Assembly (NCBI GenBank): GCA_945932505.1
Contig: CAMEQB010000002.1
Span: 1-56,840, forward strand
Direction: 5' to 3'
Source of the DNA: an uncultured Spirochaetales bacterium
GTDB taxonomy: Bacteria > Spirochaetota > Spirochaetia > Sphaerochaetales > Sphaerochaetaceae
Length of the DNA: 56,840 nt
Shown here: positions 30,063-47,014 of the stretch, piece by piece
Numbering within the stretch: the stretch's first letter is position 1
How the letters are laid out: every line of letters begins with the position of its first letter
Notes under the pieces: model-generated
Told to the model about the DNA's origin: nothing
Database searches by the model: none
Seen by the model: only the letters and a program-made list of their open reading frames with translations
Program-made: the position numbers and the translations under genes

Positions 30063-30099
30063 TGTAAGAATGGGGAATAACCCAATCTCGAGGTGGAAG

Positions 30100-30561
30100 A
30101 TGCATCTTTTGACAGGAATGTACACAGCAAGGGTTGATGAAAAGGGTCGCCTTTCTTTGCCTTCACGTCTAAGAGCTGCTCTATCATCTGAGGAAGTTGT
30201 TGTTCTTCCGGGGCTTGATGGAAACCATCTGATGCTGATGACTCCCGACTACTTTGAAAATCAGTTTTGTGTCCAAATAATTTCTACTCCTTTGGCACTT
30301 ATGGACAAAGAAAAAAGGCAGTTGATGAGAAAAATAATATCCCCCGCACAGTATCTAGATGTCGACAGCGCCGGAAGAATCAACATCCCCCAGTCTCAAA
30401 GAGAGAGTGTAGGGATAAGCAATAAAAGCGAATGCCTTTTGATGGGGACTGGATATGCAGTTGAAATCTGGAACCCTGAGGTTTTTGCAAAAGAAGATGA
30501 AGACTGCACCGAGTCAGTTTCAGACTTGGCTCAGAAAATATATGAAGAGGAGAAGAACTGA
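30100..30561 (+). CDS. mraZ: Transcriptional regulator MraZ
   Basis: LLTGMYTARVDEKGRLSLPSRLRAAL; SD GAGG before ATG 30100 (track start 30070). Confidence 0.92.
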   Translation: MHLLTGMYTARVDEKGRLSLPSRLRAALSSEEVVVLPGLDGNHLMLMTPDYFENQFCVQIISTPLALMDKEKRQLMRKIISPAQYLDVDSAGRINIPQSQRESVGISNKSECLLMGTGYAVEIWNPEVFAKEDEDCTESVSDLAQKIYEEEKN

Positions 30562-31448
30562 TGGAGTTCCTTCATTATCCTGTAATGCATCAAGAAGTTT
30601 TAGATAATCTCACCATTCCTAAAGAAAGGGATGCGGTGATGATTGACTGCACCACAGGAGAAGGTGGACACACAAAGCTCTTCTTGGATACATATCCAAA
30701 CCTCAAAGTAATTGGAATCGATAGAGACAAAGAGATTCAGAAGAAAGCCATTGAAAGATTCAAGGATTACGGAGACAGATTCACTCCTGTCAATTCTTGG
30801 TTTAACGATTATCTCTCCGAAAGGGAAAGCGAGAGCGCAGATGCAATTCTCTTTGATCTTGGAATTTCAATTTTCCACTATGAAGAGTCTATGAGAGGCT
30901 TCTCTTTCAGAAAAGAAGAAAAGCTTGATATGAGATTGGACGAGAGTCAGAGACTAAGTGCAGAGACTATTGTAAATGAGTATCCGGAAGAAGCTCTGAG
31001 CGATGTCATCTACAAGTATGGCGAAGAAAGATACTCGCGAAGGATAGCTAGGACAATAGTCGAGAAGAGAAGAGAGAAGAGAATCGAGACTTCTAAAGAG
31101 CTGGCGGATATTATTTATGGCTGTGTCCCTCGTGAATATAGATATGGACGCATTCATCCTGCAACAAGGACATTCCAGGCTTTGAGAATCGAAGTGAATA
31201 AGGAACTGGATAGAATAAGTCCTGCTCTTGAGAATGCTTTGAGAGTTCTTAACAAGGGTGGAAGAGTCGCTGTAATAACTTTCCATTCTTTGGAAGATAG
31301 AATCGTAAAGTGGTATTTCAAAGATCGATATGAAAAATATGGAGACATATCAATTCTGACGAAGAAGCCGATAGTGCCTACAGACAAAGAGTGTGATGAG
31401 AATCCACCTTCAAGATCTGCAAAACTTCGTGTAGTGGAGAAAAAATAA
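30561..31448 (+). CDS. rsmH: 16S rRNA (cytosine1402-N4)-methyltransferase
   Basis: 295 aa; HYPVMHQEVLDNL, DCTTGEGGHTKLFL, FDLGIS, RGFSFRKEEKLDMRLD, ATRTFQALRIEVNKEL, FHSLEDRIVK. Confidence 0.95.
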   Translation: MEFLHYPVMHQEVLDNLTIPKERDAVMIDCTTGEGGHTKLFLDTYPNLKVIGIDRDKEIQKKAIERFKDYGDRFTPVNSWFNDYLSERESESADAILFDLGISIFHYEESMRGFSFRKEEKLDMRLDESQRLSAETIVNEYPEEALSDVIYKYGEERYSRRIARTIVEKRREKRIETSKELADIIYGCVPREYRYGRIHPATRTFQALRIEVNKELDRISPALENALRVLNKGGRVAVITFHSLEDRIVKWYFKDRYEKYGDISILTKKPIVPTDKECDENPPSRSAKLRVVEKK

Positions 31449-31449
31449 T

Positions 31450-31713
31450 ATGAAGTACAGGGAAAATGTAAGACATGAACTAGATCGTAGAGCCAAGGTC
31501 ATCATAATCCTTGGAATAGTATTGAGCTTTCTTGTGATAATGGTACCCCTATGGCAGAAAGGTTCTGCAGCCACTATCTCAATGAAGACGATGAAGGCGG
31601 AAGAGAGACTTGATGGCTTAGAGAAGGAAGAAAGAGTTCTTCTATCATCGCTAAGTACAGTTGAAGACAACACCATAAGGGAAGAAGTTGCCCTTGCAAT
31701 GGCAGACTTTTAA
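31450..31713 (+). CDS. ftsL: FtsL-like cell division protein
   Basis: 87 aa bitopic protein with one TM segment and coiled-coil between rsmH and ftsW. Confidence 0.6.
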   Translation: MKYRENVRHELDRRAKVIIILGIVLSFLVIMVPLWQKGSAATISMKTMKAEERLDGLEKEERVLLSSLSTVEDNTIREEVALAMADF

Positions 31714-31758
31714 TTCTAAATGGGAGACAAAGACTCCCGCTTAATCTAAACTTAAGAC

Positions 31759-32901
31759 ATGAAAGAGCAGAGCATCAGTTATTATGACGACTATGTAGAC
31801 GACAATTATGTAGTGAAAGAAGGGGAGGGCTTCTTCTCTCCTTTCACTTTTTTATGCTCTGTTTTGGTTTTATCACTATTTGGCTTTATTGCGCTTTTAT
31901 CCAGCACCATGGACAAAGCTATCGCTGAGGGTGTTCCGTTCTATAGTTATTTGGGAAAAGAGTTGTTAGGTGCAGTGTTGGGGCTGGTATTGGGTATTCT
32001 TACATATCTTGTTCCAGATAATATCCTCAATAAGATACACTTTGTTACATGCCCGATTTCAATTGTTTTATTGACTCTATCTAAGTTTGTTTCGCACTTG
32101 AGTTTTCTTTCTTTCTCAGGTGGAGTCTTCTCATTATTTACACTTGTATATTTTATTGCTTGGAGCGTTCCTGTTGTTATGGAAAAGGAAAGAAAGGGCT
32201 TTCCTCTCCTAGCCATCATCCCGTTCTCTATTATATATCTTGCATTCATCGGTTATACTGCAGGTCTGGGTTGGTATGTTGTGGGCTTAGTAATAATTAT
32301 TGCCACTGCTTCCCAGTTTGAAGCAGGAAAGGGATATCTCTTTTTCTTTGTCCTTACAGGGCTTGTGATACTTTTTCTACTCTCCATGATTCCTAGTGTG
32401 TTCAATAGCGTCTCTTCATCAGTTCTTCCTGTAAATGACACCTCTCTTTATAACAAGGATCTACTTGTTTCAAGAATGGCTATAAAAGACGGAGGCATGT
32501 CAGGCTCTGGACTTGGACAAGGCCTATATAAGTTGGGAGCTTTGGAGACACCTCATAAAGAGTTTATCTTCGCAACAATCTTTGAGGAGACCGGTCTTAT
32601 TGGCCTCAGTCTTATTCTTTTTCCTTCAATTATCATATTGATTGTGGGTATAAGGACAGCAAACAGAGCTAGAAGCAAGAAAGAGTTTTCTGTATCTGCC
32701 ATAGTTATAGGTGGTGTATCGTTAATAGTATTTGCCGTTCTATTAAATATTCTCCGTGTCATGGGCTTCAATCCATTTGGAGGCTTGTATCTACCATTCT
32801 TCTCATATGATCCCCTCAGCGAAGCTTTATTTGTATTTTTAAGTGTAATTCTATATAGACTTATATATAGAGAGGGAAGGGAGAAAGATGACAAGGAGTA
32901 G
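31759..32901 (+). CDS. ftsW: SEDS-family protein FtsW-like, with altered conserved motifs
   Basis: 380 aa; about 10 TM; GSGLGQGLYKLGALETPHKEFIFATIFEETGLIG corresponds to the canonical GxGLGxSxxKLxYLPEAHTDFIFAIIxEELG. Confidence 0.85.
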   Translation: MKEQSISYYDDYVDDNYVVKEGEGFFSPFTFLCSVLVLSLFGFIALLSSTMDKAIAEGVPFYSYLGKELLGAVLGLVLGILTYLVPDNILNKIHFVTCPISIVLLTLSKFVSHLSFLSFSGGVFSLFTLVYFIAWSVPVVMEKERKGFPLLAIIPFSIIYLAFIGYTAGLGWYVVGLVIIIATASQFEAGKGYLFFFVLTGLVILFLLSMIPSVFNSVSSSVLPVNDTSLYNKDLLVSRMAIKDGGMSGSGLGQGLYKLGALETPHKEFIFATIFEETGLIGLSLILFPSIIILIVGIRTANRARSKKEFSVSAIVIGGVSLIVFAVLLNILRVMGFNPFGGLYLPFFSYDPLSEALFVFLSVILYRLIYREGREKDDKE

Positions 32902-33619
32902 AAAAATCTTTTTTATGTCTTTTTCTCTTTTAACTATCATATTCCTTATTCTCTCAGCGTCCATTGTAGGACGTTTTACTATTAAGAGCGTCGAAGTGAA
33001 AGAAATACCTGAGACATGGAATGTAATGTCACTATTACTAAGAGAAAAGGGACGAAATGTATTGTCTCTTAATAAGAGGGGAATAAAGAAAGAAATAGAG
33101 AAGCTTATATACATAGAAAGGGCTGATGTTGGAGTTCACGACAATGTTCTTACTGTCACTGGCATTCTACCTCAATGTGGCGTGCTTCTTTATGATGGGA
33201 GAAGAACAGCATTTGTAGGAGAGTGTGAAAAGGGAGAAATCGACAGTAAGGATTATATTGCCTTACAGGGTGGATTTCTCACTCTGGAAGTTACTCCTGT
33301 ATTGTTTGATATAATATTGGGTTCAAATGATGAAAAATATACATCTTTAATGATGACACTGTCACACGCTTTTGAATCTTCTGGCTTGATAACAAATGCC
33401 GAATATGACAATAATAAACCTAGTATATTCTCAGGCTCGTTGACTCTTTACTTAGATAGTGTAGAAGCAGTTCTTATCATTAAGGATCTAAGGAAAGTCG
33501 ATAGACTTGAAGAGTGTCTTGAAATAATCAAAGAGGATTATATTTCCTCTAATGATAGAATGTTAGAGAGAGCTAAGGAATATGTCCTTGACGACTCTCT
33601 CATGGTAGTAAAGAGGTAA
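32888..33619 (+). CDS. ftsQ: FtsQ/DivIB-like cell division protein
   Basis: 243 aa; N-terminal TM and POTRA-like segment (FTIKSVEVKEIPETWNVMSLLLREKGRNVLSLNKRGIKKEIEKL); dcw position. Confidence 0.65.
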   Translation: MTRSRKIFFMSFSLLTIIFLILSASIVGRFTIKSVEVKEIPETWNVMSLLLREKGRNVLSLNKRGIKKEIEKLIYIERADVGVHDNVLTVTGILPQCGVLLYDGRRTAFVGECEKGEIDSKDYIALQGGFLTLEVTPVLFDIILGSNDEKYTSLMMTLSHAFESSGLITNAEYDNNKPSIFSGSLTLYLDSVEAVLIIKDLRKVDRLEECLEIIKEDYISSNDRMLERAKEYVLDDSLMVVKR

Positions 33620-33623
33620 GGCT

Positions 33624-34853
33624 GTGGCTGCAGACAAAACGATAGTAGGATTGGATATAGGTACAAGTTCCACAAGAGTCGCCGTCGGTTCTGTCTCCAG
33701 AGATGGACAGCTGGTGATAGAGAGTGTTGTCGAACGCCCAAGCGAAGGTGTAAAGAACGGCTCTATTGTCAACATTGAACAGACAATGAAGACAATAGGA
33801 AGTGTAATTGGTGAAGCTGAAGTACAGGCCGGTACAGAGATTTCATCTGTCATCATCGGTATCGGAGGGGACCAGATCAAAGGCATAAAGAGTAATGGTG
33901 TCGTAGGTATCAACTCCAAAGACCAGGAGATAACCAAAGACGATATCAGACGCTCCATCGATGTTGCCAGAAATATCCAGCTTCCTCAGAATACAGAGAT
34001 CCTTCATTCTCTTGTCCAGGATTTCTATGTGGATTCACGCTCTGGCATCAAGGACCCTGTAGATATGCTGGGACATAGGTTAGATACTAAGATTCTCCTT
34101 GTCTTGGGTTCTTCTCCAATAATCCAGAATCAGAAGAAGTGTGTACATAAAACTGGTCTTCAGGTTCAGAAAGTTGTGTTCCAGACTCTTGCAGATGCAG
34201 AAGTGGTTCTATCCCCTGAAGAGAAAGATATGGGAGCCATCGTCATTAATATCGGATCTGGGTCTACAAACTATATAGCATACGCCGGTGGTGCACCTGT
34301 ACATGTAGGTGGCATAAATCGTGGAAGTGACCTTGTTACTTCCGATATCGCATACCTATTCCAGCTTCCAAAGGCTGCAGCTGAGTCACTAAAGCTTACT
34401 GACGGTTCCTGCTATAGCCCTGGAATAGACGAAAACGACATGATGGTCACACCTGCTCTTGGGGGTAAGCCGGCTATCAGAATGCCTAGGAAAGAGTTTG
34501 CAAAAGTAATAGAAGCAAGAATGGCAGAGATACTGTTGATGATTCAGCAGGATTTACAAGATAACCAGATTCAAGGACCTTTCGGTGCAGGAATAGTTCT
34601 TGTAGGTGGTGGAGCATTAATGGGAGGAGTGACAGAGTTGGCTGCAGAGATATTCCGTCTTCCTTCCCGTATCGGATTCCCTGAGGCTATAAGCGGATTG
34701 GACAGGACATATATCGATCCAAAATATTCAACAGTCTTGGGTCTATTTAAGAGTGAGGCCAAAAGATTTCGTGACAACAACGATATTTCTGGCGTCAAAG
34801 AGAAGAAAGGCTTCGGATCAAAAGTCAAGAGCCTCTTTGGTAAGTTATTTTAA
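33624..34853 (+). CDS. ftsA: Cell division protein FtsA
   Basis: 409 aa; TIVGLDIGTSSTRVAVG, GIGGDQIKGIKSNGVVGI, GAIVINIGSGSTNYIAY; GTG start. Confidence 0.94.
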   Translation: MAADKTIVGLDIGTSSTRVAVGSVSRDGQLVIESVVERPSEGVKNGSIVNIEQTMKTIGSVIGEAEVQAGTEISSVIIGIGGDQIKGIKSNGVVGINSKDQEITKDDIRRSIDVARNIQLPQNTEILHSLVQDFYVDSRSGIKDPVDMLGHRLDTKILLVLGSSPIIQNQKKCVHKTGLQVQKVVFQTLADAEVVLSPEEKDMGAIVINIGSGSTNYIAYAGGAPVHVGGINRGSDLVTSDIAYLFQLPKAAAESLKLTDGSCYSPGIDENDMMVTPALGGKPAIRMPRKEFAKVIEARMAEILLMIQQDLQDNQIQGPFGAGIVLVGGGALMGGVTELAAEIFRLPSRIGFPEAISGLDRTYIDPKYSTVLGLFKSEAKRFRDNNDISGVKEKKGFGSKVKSLFGKLF

Positions 34854-34862
34854 GGAGCTGAG

Positions 34863-36125
34863 ATGAGCTTTAATTTATTTGATATTGAAGACACTACTAC
34901 AGGAGAACAGGCTACACCTACAATAATCAAAGTCGTTGGAGTAGGTGGAGGCGGTGGCAACGCTGTAAACAGAATGATTGCCAATGGTCTGAAGAAAGTA
35001 TCCTTTGTTGCATTGAATACTGATGTTCAGGCTCTACAGCGCTCTAATGCCCAGACAAGAATCGCCATAGGTAAGGAGCTTACAGGAGGACTTGGTGCCG
35101 GTGGTCAGCCAGAAATCGGAGAGAAGGCTGCACAGGAAAGCAAGGAAGAGATCAAGAAAGAGCTTGAAAATGCAGATATGGTCTTTATTACAGCAGGTAT
35201 GGGCGGTGGAACTGGAACAGGTGCCGCTGCTGTAGTTGCTGAAATAGCAAAGAGCTGCAACGCTTTGACAGTTGCAGTTGTAACTACTCCATTTACATTC
35301 GAAGGAAAGAAGAAGTTAAGTCTTGCTGAGCAGGGTATCGAGAAACTACGTAAGAGTGTAGATACTCTCATCATCATTCCTAACCAGCACTTATTGAATG
35401 TTGTAGAGCAGAACACTCCTATCAAGAAAGCATTCCTTCTTGCAGACTCCGCCCTATTGCAGGCTGTACAGGGCATCTCGGACCTTATTACTGAGCCAGG
35501 TGAAATCAACATCGACTTTGCAGACGTAAAGACAGTAATGAAGGGTAAGGGTGACGCTCTTATCGGACTTGGATTTGGAGAAGGAACAAATAGAGCTGTT
35601 GAAGCAGCAAAGCAGTCTATCAACAACCCGCTATTGGAGAATGCATCTATAGAAGGTGCAAAGGCAGTACTGGTCAACATTGCTGGTGGTGATAACCTTA
35701 CACTCCAGGAGTATCAGGATGTAGTTGAGCTCATTACTGCAAACGTTGACGAAGAAGCTCTTATTACTGCAGGTCAGTCCTATAACCCTGCACTTGGAGA
35801 GAGAATCAGAGTCACTGTGGTCGCTACAGGCTTCGAGCATCGCTCTGTTAGCACTGGTGCCAATGCTGCAGAGATCTTCGGAACAAAGAATGGAAAACCG
35901 GAAGAAGAAAACAATGAAGTTCCTCAGTTCAATAGGCGTCACGAAGAGGCTCCTCAGAAGAAAGAGAACAGCTATGAAAGAGAAAAAGAGAGCAATAAGG
36001 ACTCCGGCGTAATCAACATTAATCGTTGGACAGACCTTAAGAACCAGCTTAATCTCAGAAGCAGTAATTCTACTGATTATACAACACCTTCTATTTTGAG
36101 AATGAAGAACGATGATGACCAATGA
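34863..36125 (+). CDS. ftsZ: Cell division protein FtsZ
   Basis: 420 aa; [63 protein letters not shown]. Confidence 0.97.
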
Positions 36126-37038
36126 GTATGACCTAAGTAGTGTAGACAGGGAACTAGTCAGATCTTTTGGAGACACTATCAGTTATTCTTTTCGCCTCTC
36201 GGAGAAAACCCGGGAGGTTTATTGTAGGGAAGCATCCCTCTTTCTTACTTTTCTCAATAAGAACAATTTAAAGCTGGAGGAAGTGACTCCAACACTCATT
36301 GAGAAGTACGTAATAGAACGAGAAGATGAAAATGGAATACAGACTAGGACTGCCGGAAAGGTCTTGTCTTCTCTCCGTACTTTTTTTAAATTCCTCAAGA
36401 ATGAGAAAATAGTGGAATCGAATCCTGCAAAGCTGGTGGAGAAGCCAAAAGACCCGGTAGTACTTCCAAAAACTATAAGCGAAGATGAGATTGAGGAGCT
36501 GTTGAACCAATTTGACGATGATTTACTTGGGCGTCGTGATTATGCTCTATTTGAGCTCATATACTCTTCTGGCATGCGTATCAGCGAAGCAGTATCTTTA
36601 GATGTAAGTTCATGGAGACGGGAAGAGAAAGCTATAAACGTAATAGGAAAGAGAAATAAAGAGAGAATAGTCTTTGTTGGTGATATTGCCTTTGATGCAG
36701 TGGAGGAGTATTTATGGAATGTAAGGCCGAAGCTCCTTTCAAAGAAGAATCAGAAAGAACAGGCCTTATTTCTTAATAGAAGGGGAGGTAGGCTTACCCG
36801 CCAGGCAGCACACTTACGCTTTCAGGAGTGTACAAAGACCTTGGGCTTGGACGCCACTATCCACACTCTGCGTCACTCTTTTGCTTCCCATATGATAAAA
36901 AACGGTGCTGACATAAGAAGCGTGCAGGAGATGCTGGGGCATAGTGACATCAAGACTACCCAAATCTACACCCAACTTGATACTTCTACGCTTCTTGAAG
37001 CCTATGACAAGTTCTCTCCCTTTGATGATGAAGAGTAA
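36112..37038 (+). CDS. Tyrosine recombinase XerC/XerD-like (copy 1)
   Basis: 308 aa; R-H-x-x-R-H/W-Y signature: [51 protein letters not shown]. Confidence 0.92.
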
Positions 37039-37076
37039 TTTTTGTTCAAAATAAGGGAAAACTGCGTTTTATTAGT

Positions 37077-37754
37077 ATGAAGCGGAAAAAACTGAATATA
37101 GAATCCTTCTCATACTATGGAGCGGAAATAAGATATATCGGAGCCCTTCCTGATGAAAATACTGTCTTTCTTTCAGGAGGAAAGAGTATGGGGAGAGAAG
37201 GGATAGTTGCAATGTATCGCTCAAGCTTGGAGGCTGCGGCAAATGAATGGAGCGTCTCTTATATTCCAGGACTCCAATACTCAGAAGCTGTAGAGAGAGG
37301 ATTATATGAGAGAGATAAGGGCGCTCTCTTTGCCTTTGTACCTATGGGAATAAAGTGCGCGTCCCTTTCTCTTATCTCTAGGTGTCTTGTAACTGGAGGC
37401 GGTGTCATATCCACAGTCAATGACGATTCTGTCTTCTCTTTAGAAGCTTTATCATCTTGTCGTAGCTTGGCTCACTCTCTTTCAAGAGCTACAATAATAG
37501 GTAATGAGAACCTCTCATCTATACCTTATTCTATAATGAGTGCGTTGGATGAAGGTAGGGACGTGGGAGTGTTGGAAAGTGCACTGAATGGTAAAGGAGT
37601 CAGAAACCTGGTACGGGAGGGAGCTCCCATAGTAAGGAGTTTTTCTGATTTTCTATCTACTCCACGTTATATATCTTTTCCATATTCAAAAGGAAAGTAT
37701 GGCATAATGGGAGAGCGTTTCGGGCTATTGGATATAGAAAGACATGAAAAATAA
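37077..37754 (+). CDS. Divergent DprA/Smf-like Rossmann protein
   Basis: 225 aa; gapped resemblance to DprA: GVISTVNDDSVFSLEALSSCRSLAHSLSRATIIG, LDEGRDVGVLESALNGKGVRNLVREGAPIV; xer-hslV context. Confidence 0.6.
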   Translation: MKRKKLNIESFSYYGAEIRYIGALPDENTVFLSGGKSMGREGIVAMYRSSLEAAANEWSVSYIPGLQYSEAVERGLYERDKGALFAFVPMGIKCASLSLISRCLVTGGGVISTVNDDSVFSLEALSSCRSLAHSLSRATIIGNENLSSIPYSIMSALDEGRDVGVLESALNGKGVRNLVREGAPIVRSFSDFLSTPRYISFPYSKGKYGIMGERFGLLDIERHEK

Positions 37755-38685
37755 CGAGTACATAGAAGAATTCTTAATCTATGAAAAAAAGATAAAGGCA
37801 CTCAGTGACAATACTGTCAAAGCCTATAACTTTGATTTGGATATTCTTTCATCCTTTTCTGGAGAAAGGGAATTGGATTTTCCTTCCTTTTCCAATGAAG
37901 ACGCCAGGGAATTTATGCGTAAACTGGAGAAAGATGGTAGAGCTGAGAAAACTAGGCTCAGAATCCTTACTTGCTGCCATACTTTCTTTACATACCTTGA
38001 AAAATCAGGAGAAGTGGATTTTAATCCCTTCGATTCCATCTCTCTTCGCTCTGGTGGTAGAAGGCTTCCATCTGTCTTGACAGTAGATGAAGTTAAAGAG
38101 CTTTTATCCCTTCCTGTGAACAACTTCAAGGACGAGAGGGACCATATACTCTTTCTCTTTCTATACAACACCGGCTGTAGAATAAGCGAAGCTTTGAGTG
38201 TAGACGTAGATGATATAGAGTGGGGTGAGAGAAGAATAAAGATAATGGGAAAGGGAAGCAAGGAAAGATTTGTTTTTCTTTCAAAGAAAGCCCTTACTGA
38301 GATCAAAGACCAGTACTTACCCCAAAGAGAAGCTTACTTAGTGGAAAAAGGGAAAGGCGGAGAAAAAGCATTGTTTATTGGAGAAAGGGGAGGAAGGTTG
38401 CCGTTTTCCTCTTCTCATATTATCTTCGATGAATATAGGGAAAAACTTGGATGGCAGAAAGATTTCACTCCTCATACTTTGAGGCACTCTTTCGCCACTC
38501 ATCTTATGGATAAGGGTGCTGACATAAGACTTGTCCAAGAGTTACTCGGACATGAAAGTATTTCTACTACACAGATCTATACGCACGTCTCCAGAGCCAA
38601 ATTGAAGAAAGTGTATATGGATACGCATCCACATGGTAAAGGAAATAAAAAGAATGACAGGAACGACAATTGTAGCAGTTCGTAA
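37744..38685 (+). CDS. Tyrosine recombinase XerC/XerD-like (copy 2)
   Basis: 313 aa; [65 protein letters not shown]. Confidence 0.93.
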
Positions 38686-40552: not shown

Positions 40553-41638
40553 ATGCAGTATATAACCATTGTTGCAGATAGCTATGAAGAAGCGGCGGAA
40601 AAAGCGAGAAAAGAGTATGGCGATGCCATACGTATTCATTCCCGCCGCGATTTTACAACTCCAGGTGGTCTCTTTACACGAAAGATGAAAAAGTGTGAGA
40701 TCACTTGTTATATCTCAACCTCTCCACTGGAAGAAAAGACAGTGGGACAGAGAGATATGAATGAATTTGAGAAAGAAGCAAAGACTCCAGACCCACATAA
40801 GCTTACAACGCAAGAACGTCTTAATACAGAGATACATCGAGGCACGGAGGAAGGATATAAGAAAGCTGAAAGGCTTTTGGAGGAAAACTATATTTCAGGC
40901 CCATTGAGGGAAAAGCTTTTGGAAGGACTTTCTTGTACAAGTGACGAGTGCTCCAGAATACTAAGTGAAAGAATACTTGAAAATACAAAGATGGATTATG
41001 AAGCACAGATTCATCCTTCCCGTGTGGTAGTTTTCTTGGGTCCTACAGGTGCAGGAAAGACTACAACCCTGGCAAAGGTTGCTTGGCTATACAAATCCAG
41101 TGGCAAGAAAGTTGGAATCATAACTCTGGATGCATATAGAGTAGGCGCCTATGAGCAGATAGCCGCCTTTGGTGAAGGGTTGGGTATTCCAGTAGAGAAA
41201 GTCGTTAGAGAAGACCAATTGATGGTAGCTATGGAGAAGTTTTCATACTTCGATCTTGTTCTTGTAGATACTATGGGGTTAAGTAGTAAAGACTTGGAGC
41301 TTAATCTTAGACTAAAGGGGCTGGGCTTACAGCTTTCAAGACTCAACACTACTTTTACACTGATAGTCTCTGCAAGCATGAAAGAAGAAGATATGATGAG
41401 ACACTACGAACGATATAAAGATGACTTCTCCATCACTTCAATAATCGTAACAAAACTTGATGAGTCTATAACAATCGGAAACGCCCTCTCTTTTGCATAC
41501 TCAATTAATAAGCCTATTCTCTTCTTCACTGACGGGCAGAAAGTCCCTGAAGACTTGGAGAAGGCATCTACAGAGGTGATACTTGGTAACTTAAGAGGTT
41601 TCGGCCTTGATATGAGGGCATATAGGGGACAGCTTTGA
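40553..41638 (+). CDS. flhF: FlhF-like SRP-type GTPase
   Basis: 361 aa; VVFLGPTGAGKTTTLAKVAWLY, GIITLDAYRVGAYEQIAAFGEGLGIP, LVLVDTMGLSSKD, IIVTKLDES. Confidence 0.82.
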   Translation: MQYITIVADSYEEAAEKARKEYGDAIRIHSRRDFTTPGGLFTRKMKKCEITCYISTSPLEEKTVGQRDMNEFEKEAKTPDPHKLTTQERLNTEIHRGTEEGYKKAERLLEENYISGPLREKLLEGLSCTSDECSRILSERILENTKMDYEAQIHPSRVVVFLGPTGAGKTTTLAKVAWLYKSSGKKVGIITLDAYRVGAYEQIAAFGEGLGIPVEKVVREDQLMVAMEKFSYFDLVLVDTMGLSSKDLELNLRLKGLGLQLSRLNTTFTLIVSASMKEEDMMRHYERYKDDFSITSIIVTKLDESITIGNALSFAYSINKPILFFTDGQKVPEDLEKASTEVILGNLRGFGLDMRAYRGQL

Positions 41639-42550
41639 TTATATTTTTCCGCTGTTTTTCATAACTTTTTCGATTTTTTCCACCAGAACTGGTATCTGGG
41701 AGGTGTCACTCCAAAGATAGTAAGAGCCCACTGATATTCCATCCAACATACGGGATGGAAGAGTAAGGGCTCTTTCTGTTGTTACAGAAGAGGGTGGCGT
41801 AATAAACCTTACAAGGTTATTTAATACTTCTTCGTCCACTTTTCCGTCGTACGCCACGATAAAGCCCTTATTTGAGATAATGGCTGCATCCTCATCTATC
41901 TCCATCTCTTTTTTTACTTCTTCAAGAATGGCTTGAATTTCAGAATCCAAGGTAAGAGTTATTGATGAACCATGGACTGTTGTTTTGCCTATCTCACCCA
42001 TGGCTTTCAATGTATCATTGAAGAGCTCTTCTATTCCTCCATTTCCTTTTGTAGGCGTAGGAGCGTAGCCAAGAATAGATGAGGCGATATTATATGGGTA
42101 GTGCCTAGTCTCTTTTTCAGAGAACTCGATATAACTAGAAAGAGATTCCTCTTTTATTCTTACGTTGATCATATCTATTTGAGGATTTGTTATTGATGAA
42201 GTGAGAGGAATGAAGGTTTCTCCTTTTTCTAATAGTGACGCTATCTCGACGGCATCGTAATCTGAGTAATCTGAAAGGAAGGATGATATCTGCTGGATCT
42301 TATCTTTTTCTGTTCTTACAGTAAAACCATAGTCTGGAGCTTGGATTGCTAGAATTCTACCGTTTCTATCATAGATAGTCCCTCTTATATTGGTTGTAGA
42401 TACAATAGGATCTTTGTATCCCCAAGAAACAAGTTCTTCGCTTAAGCATAAAGATATGGCTCCATAGATGATAAGAGCTACTAAAGCTAAGGCTAATAGA
42501 ATAAGAATGACCCCTCTGGGCTTGTTGCCATTGTCTTCCATATTAAACAT
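41639..42550 (-). CDS. Class B PBP-like protein retaining the pedestal/dimerisation region but lacking a transpeptidase domain
   Basis: 303 aa; N-terminal TM, NIRGTIYDRNGRILAIQAPDYGFTV, KETRHYPYNIASSILGYAPTPTKGNGGIEELFNDTLKAMG, SITLTLDSEIQAILEEV; no SxxK, SxN or KTG motif. Confidence 0.75.
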   Translation of the reverse strand: MFNMEDNGNKPRGVILILLALALVALIIYGAISLCLSEELVSWGYKDPIVSTTNIRGTIYDRNGRILAIQAPDYGFTVRTEKDKIQQISSFLSDYSDYDAVEIASLLEKGETFIPLTSSITNPQIDMINVRIKEESLSSYIEFSEKETRHYPYNIASSILGYAPTPTKGNGGIEELFNDTLKAMGEIGKTTVHGSSITLTLDSEIQAILEEVKKEMEIDEDAAIISNKGFIVAYDGKVDEEVLNNLVRFITPPSSVTTERALTLPSRMLDGISVGSYYLWSDTSQIPVLVEKIEKVMKNSGKI

Positions 42551-42571: not shown

Positions 42572-44068
42572 TTGTCGATAGTGAGTAGAAGCGATTATGA
42601 TGATATGCCCTCAAATGGGGGAGGAAGAAGAGGAAAAGGCAACAAAAGTCTTACTTTAGGTGTCTTGATCTGTATTCTTGTTATTTTGATCATTATTGTG
42701 GTCAGACTAATATTTAAACCAGAAGAGAAATTGGAGGTTTTACCTCCAAATGCTGTAGTGAAAGAAAACTCAGTTACAAACGAAGTATCGGAAGAATCAG
42801 CGACTCCGACTCTTGATGATAATGCTATTGATCTGACTGTGGAGAGTGTTGACGTCGTAGTGGAAGATCCTCTTTCTTCTGAAATAGACGAAACATCAAG
42901 TCTGGAAACAGATAGTGAAGAAGAAATAATCCATGATGAAGAGTCTCAAACCATAGAGGGACAAGACGGTTTTCTTGAGGATACCATTGAAATCGAGGGC
43001 GTTGTAGAAGAATCTAGCGTAGAAACACTGGATGAGACTAATGCAGAAGAGAATGCTGAAGTCCATACACCTCTAGTCGACGAAGAACCTATGGTAGATG
43101 GAAGCGAAGAGGGTAGTCTTGAAAGGGAGATAGTAGAAGATTTCAGTGAAATAGATACTCAAAGCGAAGAAATAGAGACAGAAAACGAGGACGTTATTCC
43201 TGAAACTTCAGAGATAGTAACAGAAGACTATGGTAGTGGAGAAATAAATGATGAAGAGTCTTTTATTGTTCTCGATACACCAAGCGAAGAAAAAGTGGAG
43301 GATGTCACCGAGGAACCAATAATTGTTCCTGTTGTTGAAGATACTATTGATGAACCAATAGAAGAAGTTGAGGAAGAAAGCTTACCTTATGACCCATTTA
43401 TGGAGGAAGATGTAGAGACTTTAAGAAAGGGTCTTGGAGACTTGTTATCAAGAATAGACTTTAGCCTTATTCTCGCTGAAGACGAGCAGACAGTTGAAGA
43501 AGAACTTCCCATAGAAGAATCTATTAATGAAGAAGAGATAGAAAATGGCGACGTTGATATTCCTGTATTCTCTAATGAAAGCGAGAATTTGGTTATTAAG
43601 GAAGCCCAGACAGAGATTGATGACGAAAAACCTCAAATTAACGATAATGATGGGGAATCAATAATCGAGAAAGAGACTCAAAACGATAGTAGCGAAGAAT
43701 TGATCCAAGAAGTATTACTTGATGAAGTAGAATTAGAAGAGAGTTTGAAAGTATCAAAGACCCTTGCTATTGAAGAAAAGAGCGCTTCTATTATTCAGGG
43801 TTCCATTGTAATAGTGGACGGAGAGAGTGTCACTCTACTTTCTACTCCTGGAAAAGCTGTAAAGAGTCCTATTGATGGAGTTGTAAAAGAGGCAAAGAGA
43901 GTAGAAGGGAAGAAGACTATCTCTATTGAGACGGAGGAGGGAGATGTATGGAGATTCTCCGGCTTTGAGAGAGTGAATGTAAAACTCAATCAAAGTGTAA
44001 GAGAGGGGGAAGTTCTTGGAAGCGTCGGAACATCTTCTGGCTCTTCTATCGATATTTCAATCTTATAA
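42572..44068 (+). CDS. Membrane-anchored protein with long Glu/Asp-rich linker and degenerate LytM/M23-like C-terminal domain
   Basis: 498 aa; TM near residues 28-48; C-terminal TPGKAVKSPIDGVVKEAKRVEGKKTISIETEEGDVWRFSGFERVNVKLNQSVREGEVLGSVGTSSGSSIDISIL. TTG start in the track; GTG 42581 is an alternative. Confidence 0.6.
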   Translation: MSIVSRSDYDDMPSNGGGRRGKGNKSLTLGVLICILVILIIIVVRLIFKPEEKLEVLPPNAVVKENSVTNEVSEESATPTLDDNAIDLTVESVDVVVEDPLSSEIDETSSLETDSEEEIIHDEESQTIEGQDGFLEDTIEIEGVVEESSVETLDETNAEENAEVHTPLVDEEPMVDGSEEGSLEREIVEDFSEIDTQSEEIETENEDVIPETSEIVTEDYGSGEINDEESFIVLDTPSEEKVEDVTEEPIIVPVVEDTIDEPIEEVEEESLPYDPFMEEDVETLRKGLGDLLSRIDFSLILAEDEQTVEEELPIEESINEEEIENGDVDIPVFSNESENLVIKEAQTEIDDEKPQINDNDGESIIEKETQNDSSEELIQEVLLDEVELEESLKVSKTLAIEEKSASIIQGSIVIVDGESVTLLSTPGKAVKSPIDGVVKEAKRVEGKKTISIETEEGDVWRFSGFERVNVKLNQSVREGEVLGSVGTSSGSSIDISIL

Positions 44069-46892: not shown

Positions 46893-47014
46893 AGAATAAG
46901 AATAACTAATTTTTTTATCAAAGGGTAGAAGTAACCACAAATAGGTTATATTGGTTTTAATAAGTAGGTAGATTCACACTCCCAATCGGGTTAAAATGAC
47001 ACAAGGAGGCATAA

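Follow-up and report, generated by a model that had tools for sequence, protein, structure and literature searches.

The window analyzed here, a 56,840-nucleotide stretch of genomic DNA from an uncultured spirochaete of the family Sphaerochaetaceae, encompasses a dcw region in which the gene order is the same as in walled relatives, namely, mraZ, rsmH, ftsL, ftsW, ftsQ, ftsA, ftsZ, xerC, xerD, hslV, hslU, flhF, ftsI (in the convergent orientation), a LytM-like gene and secA (Table 1). The arrangement in the window differs from that in the walled relatives at two junctions: only 45 bases separate ftsL from ftsW, a gap that in the relatives is occupied by a Mur ligase and mraY, and cvpA directly follows secA, which in the relatives is found beside murG. 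Because the order of the genes is conserved whereas the gaps are devoid of mur genes, the gene located beside dcw, flhF and secA can be assigned, by synteny, as the ortholog of ftsI in a dcw region that was stripped of the wall genes but kept the division genes.

Table 1. Features of the division gene region (coordinates in the window)
Feature	Coordinates	Strand	Basis
mraZ and rsmH, which open the dcw cluster	30070..31448	+	comparison with relatives
FtsL-like ORF, transmembrane (TM) segment and coiled coil	31450..31713	+	position and PLWQ motif common to relatives; no Pfam match
Junction at the site of a murF-like ligase and mraY in walled relatives, both missing here	31714..31758	.	synteny
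FtsW (SEDS) homolog with a degenerate active site, in which Glu268 (codon 32560-32562) takes the place of Asp	31759..32901	+	PF01098, TIGR02614
FtsQ-like ORF	32888..33619	+	weak POTRA_1 match that misses the cut-off (E 0.04); tblastn match in a Sphaerochaeta-like relative (E 1e-4)
ftsA and ftsZ	33624..36125	+	tblastn, 55-72% identity to relatives; order conserved
Two XerC/XerD-type recombinases, between ftsZ and hslV	36112..38685
Small ORF flanked by the recombinases	37077..37754		no Pfam match; gene order conserved in relatives
FlhF-type GTPase	40553..41638
FtsI ortholog without the catalytic transpeptidase core, 303 aa	41639..42550	-	ATG start, no internal stop, PF03717, AF2, Foldseek, alignment
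TP domain remnant, residues 203-299, without the excised active-site core; keeps the first helix, strands 1-2, the last strands and the C-terminal helix	41654..41944	-	AF2 and alignment with 8 catalytic relatives
PBP pedestal (anchor and head), residues 53-200; RGTIYDRNG, RHYP and GGIEE motifs	41951..42394	-	PF03717
TM helix, residues 12-36	42443..42517	-	AF2/DSSP
LytM-like (M23) degenerate protein, divergent from ftsI, without HxH zinc ligands	42572..44068	+	sequence
secA-cvpA junction; murG adjoins secA in walled relatives	46941..47014	.	synteny

Among the other genes of this region, the one for the FlhF-type GTPase is kept beside ftsI. The LytM-like protein on the other side of ftsI contains a very acidic middle region and evolves fast; the LysM repeats found in its relatives were not detected in the window's protein. 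This protein is not a newly dead enzyme given that it is degenerate already in the walled relatives.

Domain architecture of the FtsI remnant

The preliminary description of this gene, made from the sequence alone, had reported an intact reading frame with a clean start, encoding a PBP without a transpeptidase (TP) domain, and both observations hold: the frame runs uninterrupted from the ATG to the stop codon, and the protein matches PBP_dimer (PF03717; residues 55-166, E = 1.4e-11, 45.6 bits against a cut-off of 24.4), whereas no PF00905 domain was detected in a Pfam search of the protein, and none of the patterns SxxK, [SYC]xN and [KH][TS]G occurs anywhere along its 303 residues. A TP domain hidden by a frameshift was looked for as well, but no PF00905 match was found in six frames of the entire assembly, which is 82% complete. 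Comparison of full-length and short forms among the relatives showed that the window's genus (hereafter g1) has only the short form, and the pedestal residues R56, G57, R149, E174 and G194 are invariant among 29 g1 sequences.

The AF2 model of the remnant, built from 29 aligned sequences of the genus (pLDDT 85, pTM 0.73), confirmed the class B PBP fold proposed in the preliminary description. In a Foldseek search against the PDB, the top matches were all class B PBPs, including S. aureus PBP1 (E = 2.7e-13), PBP2x, SpoVD, and FtsI of the P. aeruginosa FtsWIQBL complex (8bh1), and a profile search yielded the same assignment. Past the pedestal, the model contains a helix (203-216), five strands (222-226, 231-235, 247-251, 272-274 and 277-281) and a final helix (286-299).

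In an alignment of 43 TP-minus FtsI proteins with 8 catalytic relatives, the TP-minus sequences fill 92% of the columns in the pedestal, 71% in the N-terminal part of the TP domain and 64% in its C-terminal part, but only 14% in the core that carries the three catalytic motifs. The core residues that are invariant in the catalytic relatives are retained at 1% among the TP-minus proteins; none of the 43 contains any of the catalytic motifs, whereas all 8 relatives contain all three. The catalytic core missing from the window's protein amounts to ~240 residues. Given the high fill at both ends of the TP domain and the low fill in between, the alignment indicates that the domain was hollowed out internally rather than simply truncated at the C-terminus. 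The earlier proposal that PPSSVTTERAL stands in place of PGSTFK is not supported: in the alignment with the full-length relatives, the segment with SxxK is simply missing. The TP remnant is most clearly recognizable in genus g45, in the stretch from YPFYDLN to NPRYLVFVGS and QNKL. Taken together, the AF2 model and the alignment identify the last ~95 residues of the window's protein as leftovers of both ends of the TP sheet, not an unrelated tail. Some of the remnants from other genera also lack part of the pedestal head, namely, those from g46 (L106, L109, L110), g27 (L107) and g38 (L108, L111).

FtsW and the peptidoglycan pathway across the family

The FtsW of the window shows significant similarity to the SEDS profile PF01098 (88 bits, cut-off 26.4), which assigns it to the SEDS fold, and scores 114.7 bits against TIGR02614, for which the cut-off is 337.5. 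Across the family, intact contigs of walled genera encode a single SEDS protein scoring ~250-310 bits, whereas in TP-minus genera, the scores do not exceed ~154 bits. In g46, no FtsW was detected in the SEDS search, and yet, a degenerate TP-like region is kept in the FtsI of this genus.

The SEDS aspartate, the putative catalytic residue (D297 in E. coli and D275 in P. aeruginosa FtsW; PMC10390529, PMC7614612), is embedded in the sequence PEVQSDFIFA in the walled relatives. It is present in all 6 walled FtsW proteins compared, but in only 9 of the 54 TP-minus ones, where glutamate (13 proteins) or K, Q, P, L, I, T, V, M, A, S, R or Y otherwise occupy this position. The equivalents of R127, E141, K144, R236 and Q368 (numbering of the Sphaerochaeta-like FtsW) are retained in none of the 54. 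Judging from these replacements, the window's FtsW has lost the SEDS active site. The glycines of ECL4 that precede the aspartate, the EE pair and the PFFS motif show 93-100% retention in the same 54 proteins. In E. coli, the FtsI anchor touches ECL4 of FtsW (PMC10390529), and in P. aeruginosa, FtsL packs against the anchor and head of the FtsI pedestal (PMC7614612); the conserved FtsW loop is the contact site of FtsI, FtsL and FtsB in the published structures and models.

The survey of wall synthesis genes included 139 genomes from 22 genera of the family, draft MAGs among them, and covered Mur ligases, MraY, MurG, polymerase and transpeptidase. The pedestal profile matched 130 of the 139 genomes, including all 75 with a completeness of 90% or more and no more than 5% contamination. 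PF00905 was found in 59 genomes, as one protein in each, but neither in the window's genome nor in any other g1 genome. At least eight genera possess only FtsI remnants; we examined g1, g27, g28, g32, g38, g42, g45 and g46, and found that the representatives of these genera also lack MurC-F, MraY and MurG. This refines earlier reports that the group lacks PBPs, in that one set of genera encodes exactly one catalytic FtsI and another set encodes none.

In the selected genomes searched for PF08245, the walled ones yielded 5-6 Mur ligase matches and the TP-minus ones 1-2. The four TP-minus matches that were examined (in G000, the window's genome, G014 and G031) are FolC or PgsB, which rules out residual Mur ligases for these four. 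MraY was identified in 4 of 4 walled genomes but in none of 13 TP-minus genomes above the cut-off (with one sub-threshold match), and PF00953 glycosyltransferases are absent from the TP-minus genomes searched. For MurG, none of 9 walled genomes scored below 229 bits, and none of 21 TP-minus genomes scored above 49 bits. Replacement of the missing activities by other enzymes was rejected because GT51 polymerases are absent from all 139 genomes and L,D-transpeptidases (YkuD) were found in only two. By the combination of Mur ligases, MraY, MurG, polymerase and transpeptidase, the window's genome does not qualify as that of a peptidoglycan producer. With the mur, MraY, MurG and TP genes missing, we infer that the TP-minus genera make no peptidoglycan. 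In the part of the literature covered by our search, no account of peptidoglycan-free Sphaerochaetaceae was found.

Selection, repeated loss and possible intermediate forms

In the comparison of the window with genome G013, the dN/dS ratio was 0.08 for the FtsI remnant, 0.11 for FtsW, 0.34 for the LytM-like neighbor, and 0.01-0.03 for FtsZ, HslU, FlhF, SecA and FtsA; for the tail of the FtsI remnant, the values ranged from 0.10 to 0.22 over pairs. Thus, the remnant is under purifying selection, which is looser than that on the housekeeping genes. On the SecA tree, the TP-minus genomes require three state changes, and their monophyly, that is, a single ancestral loss, is rejected by the AU test (p-AU 4e-33, or 4e-4 without the long-branched g46). 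Because this result comes from one gene and a quick tree, we claim at least two independent losses but not the exact number.

These data weigh against the possibility that the remnant is a decaying, functionless gene on its way out after the loss of the wall, which we consider unlikely. The TP core is indeed gone, the deletions in the pedestal head in g27, g38 and g46 indicate continuing erosion, and four g1 assemblies yielded no pedestal match. However, these four assemblies are only 78-89% complete, whereas the gene is kept in all 75 near-complete genomes, it was retained following each of the at least two independent losses, and its dN/dS is low, in line with the preliminary description, according to which this is not simply a decayed gene.

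Two genomes of genus g26, the sister group of g1 (G063 and G065; loci L119 and L120), encode FtsI proteins of 474 and 480 amino acids, in which the TP domain is largely kept but dead at the active site, with YEPGMIIE in place of the YEPGSVFK of the relatives. Both genomes encode a MurF-type ligase, MraY and MurG, and the FtsW of G065 retains the SEDS aspartate. By these features, they resemble a transitional stage, with crosslinking the first activity to be lost. G065 also carries one of the family's two YkuD matches.

A proposed structural role in division

We consider it probable that the window's gene encodes a pseudoenzyme FtsI, retained as a structural component of the divisome by a bacterium that has ceased to make peptidoglycan. 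The preliminary description had already suggested a retained structural PBP subunit devoid of catalysis, in a lineage that kept FtsL, FtsQ and FtsW but has no PBP activity, and the absence of a TP from the genome and the dN/dS of the remnant support this suggestion. The TP mini-sheet leftovers, the de-catalyzed FtsW, the disappearance of the lipid II pathway and the repeated occurrence of this state, as read from the genomes, extend it. The division genes ftsL and ftsQ, both tentatively assigned, as well as ftsA and ftsZ are kept, the lipid II genes are missing, and, as far as can be judged from sequence, every catalytic center tested is lost. The pedestal of the remnant would still dock on FtsW and FtsL, with the remaining TP strands and helix probably capping the linker and letting the pedestal fold. 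FtsQ, FtsL, FtsW and FtsI, and probably FtsB, would form a non-catalytic scaffold that connects the periplasm with the FtsA/FtsZ ring and directs constriction in the absence of wall synthesis. The interface regions are conserved, and binding of the remnant to FtsW, FtsL and FtsB at the septum is predicted, as are assembly of the scaffold, its septal localization and its part in constriction. With no serine nucleophile motif left, the remnant is predicted not to bind beta-lactams (Bocillin). The retention of the aspartate in 9 of the 54 TP-minus FtsW proteins is a counterpoint to this reading. Furthermore, the loss of part of the pedestal head in g27, g38 and g46 and the failure to detect FtsW in g46 indicate that the head, and possibly FtsW as well, is dispensable in some genera.

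With somewhat less confidence, we favor the broader view that the peptidoglycan pathway was lost independently in several lineages of spirochaetes, which divide by means of a de-catalyzed FtsW-FtsI core divisome, a natural split of the structural role from the enzymatic one, in which, as G063 and G065 suggest, the transpeptidase died first. In walled cells, the enzymatic and scaffold roles of FtsW and FtsI are hard to separate because both are essential; evolution appears to have split them on more than one occasion, with the minimal parts still required for division left in place, and the retained residues point toward the FtsI-FtsW-FtsL interface.

Recruitment of the FtsW-FtsI pair to another activity, such as moving or polymerizing a different lipid-linked saccharide, would account for the conservation of the FtsW fold and of the EE and glycine motifs, with the pocket altered rather than vanished. 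However, the residue at the aspartate position varies freely, unlike what would be expected of a new conserved active site, and the PF00953 glycosyltransferases are absent too, so that this scenario appears about as improbable as decay. Slightly less probable still is that the non-catalytic FtsI activates a working FtsW that makes uncrosslinked glycan. Such an arrangement is likely in G063 and G065, where a dead TP coexists with the MurF-type ligase, MraY and MurG, and the FtsW proteins that keep the aspartate are compatible with it, but in the window's genus, FtsW has neither a substrate, in the absence of MraY, MurG and Mur ligases, nor an active site, having lost the aspartate along with several other invariant residues. 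An assembly error, contamination or MAG incompleteness hiding a full-length FtsI and mur genes can be all but dismissed because, although the window's genome (1.81 Mb) is in 202 contigs and 82% complete, dozens of genomes, several of them 95-99% complete, have this short form at the equivalent syntenic position, and the mur genes are missing within contigs in which the flanking genes are in order.

The proposed pseudoenzyme FtsI shares with catalytic class B PBPs (FtsI of the P. aeruginosa complex 8bh1, PBP2x and S. aureus PBP1) the N-terminal TM helix, the pedestal with RGxIYDRNG and GxE, and the fold, and with the catalytic FtsI of its relatives, the genomic place. Unlike these enzymes, it lacks SxxK, SxN, KTG and the surrounding core, and resides in a genome without the lipid II pathway. 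The closest parallels are B. subtilis PBP2B S309A, a catalytically dead protein that supports division structurally (PMC5656894), and C. difficile SpoVD S311A (PMC12713402); in both, as we propose here for the remnant, the structural contribution to division can be separated from catalysis. Those, however, are engineered point mutants in walled cells where another PBP catalyzes, whereas here the domain was excised naturally and no transpeptidase is left in the genome. SAR202 bacteria have been described as lacking peptidoglycan along with ftsW and ftsI (PMC11994032). These and other peptidoglycan-free bacteria with FtsZ resemble the TP-minus genera in that FtsZ and FtsA are kept, as judged here from the genomes, but in the latter, ftsW and ftsI are kept as well, as apparent pseudoenzymes.

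Among spirochaetes, Bullifex porci and Sphaerochaeta are not helical and have reduced PBP sets; beta-lactams do not affect B. porci, and a single TPase is retained in S. coccoides (PMC7738495, PMC4423922). In contrast to the TP-minus genera, which have neither the pathway nor a TP, these bacteria keep murA-G and mraY, and for this reason, B. porci is unlikely to belong to g1. A family with walled, intermediate and wall-less members could serve as a test set for how a diderm loses the wall and yet divides with FtsZ. The window's genome also encodes a PgsB-like poly-gamma-glutamate synthase (G000:C93, C36; L098), which is patchily distributed among both walled and wall-less relatives, and poly-gamma-glutamate was therefore rejected as a wall substitute specific to the wall-less genera.
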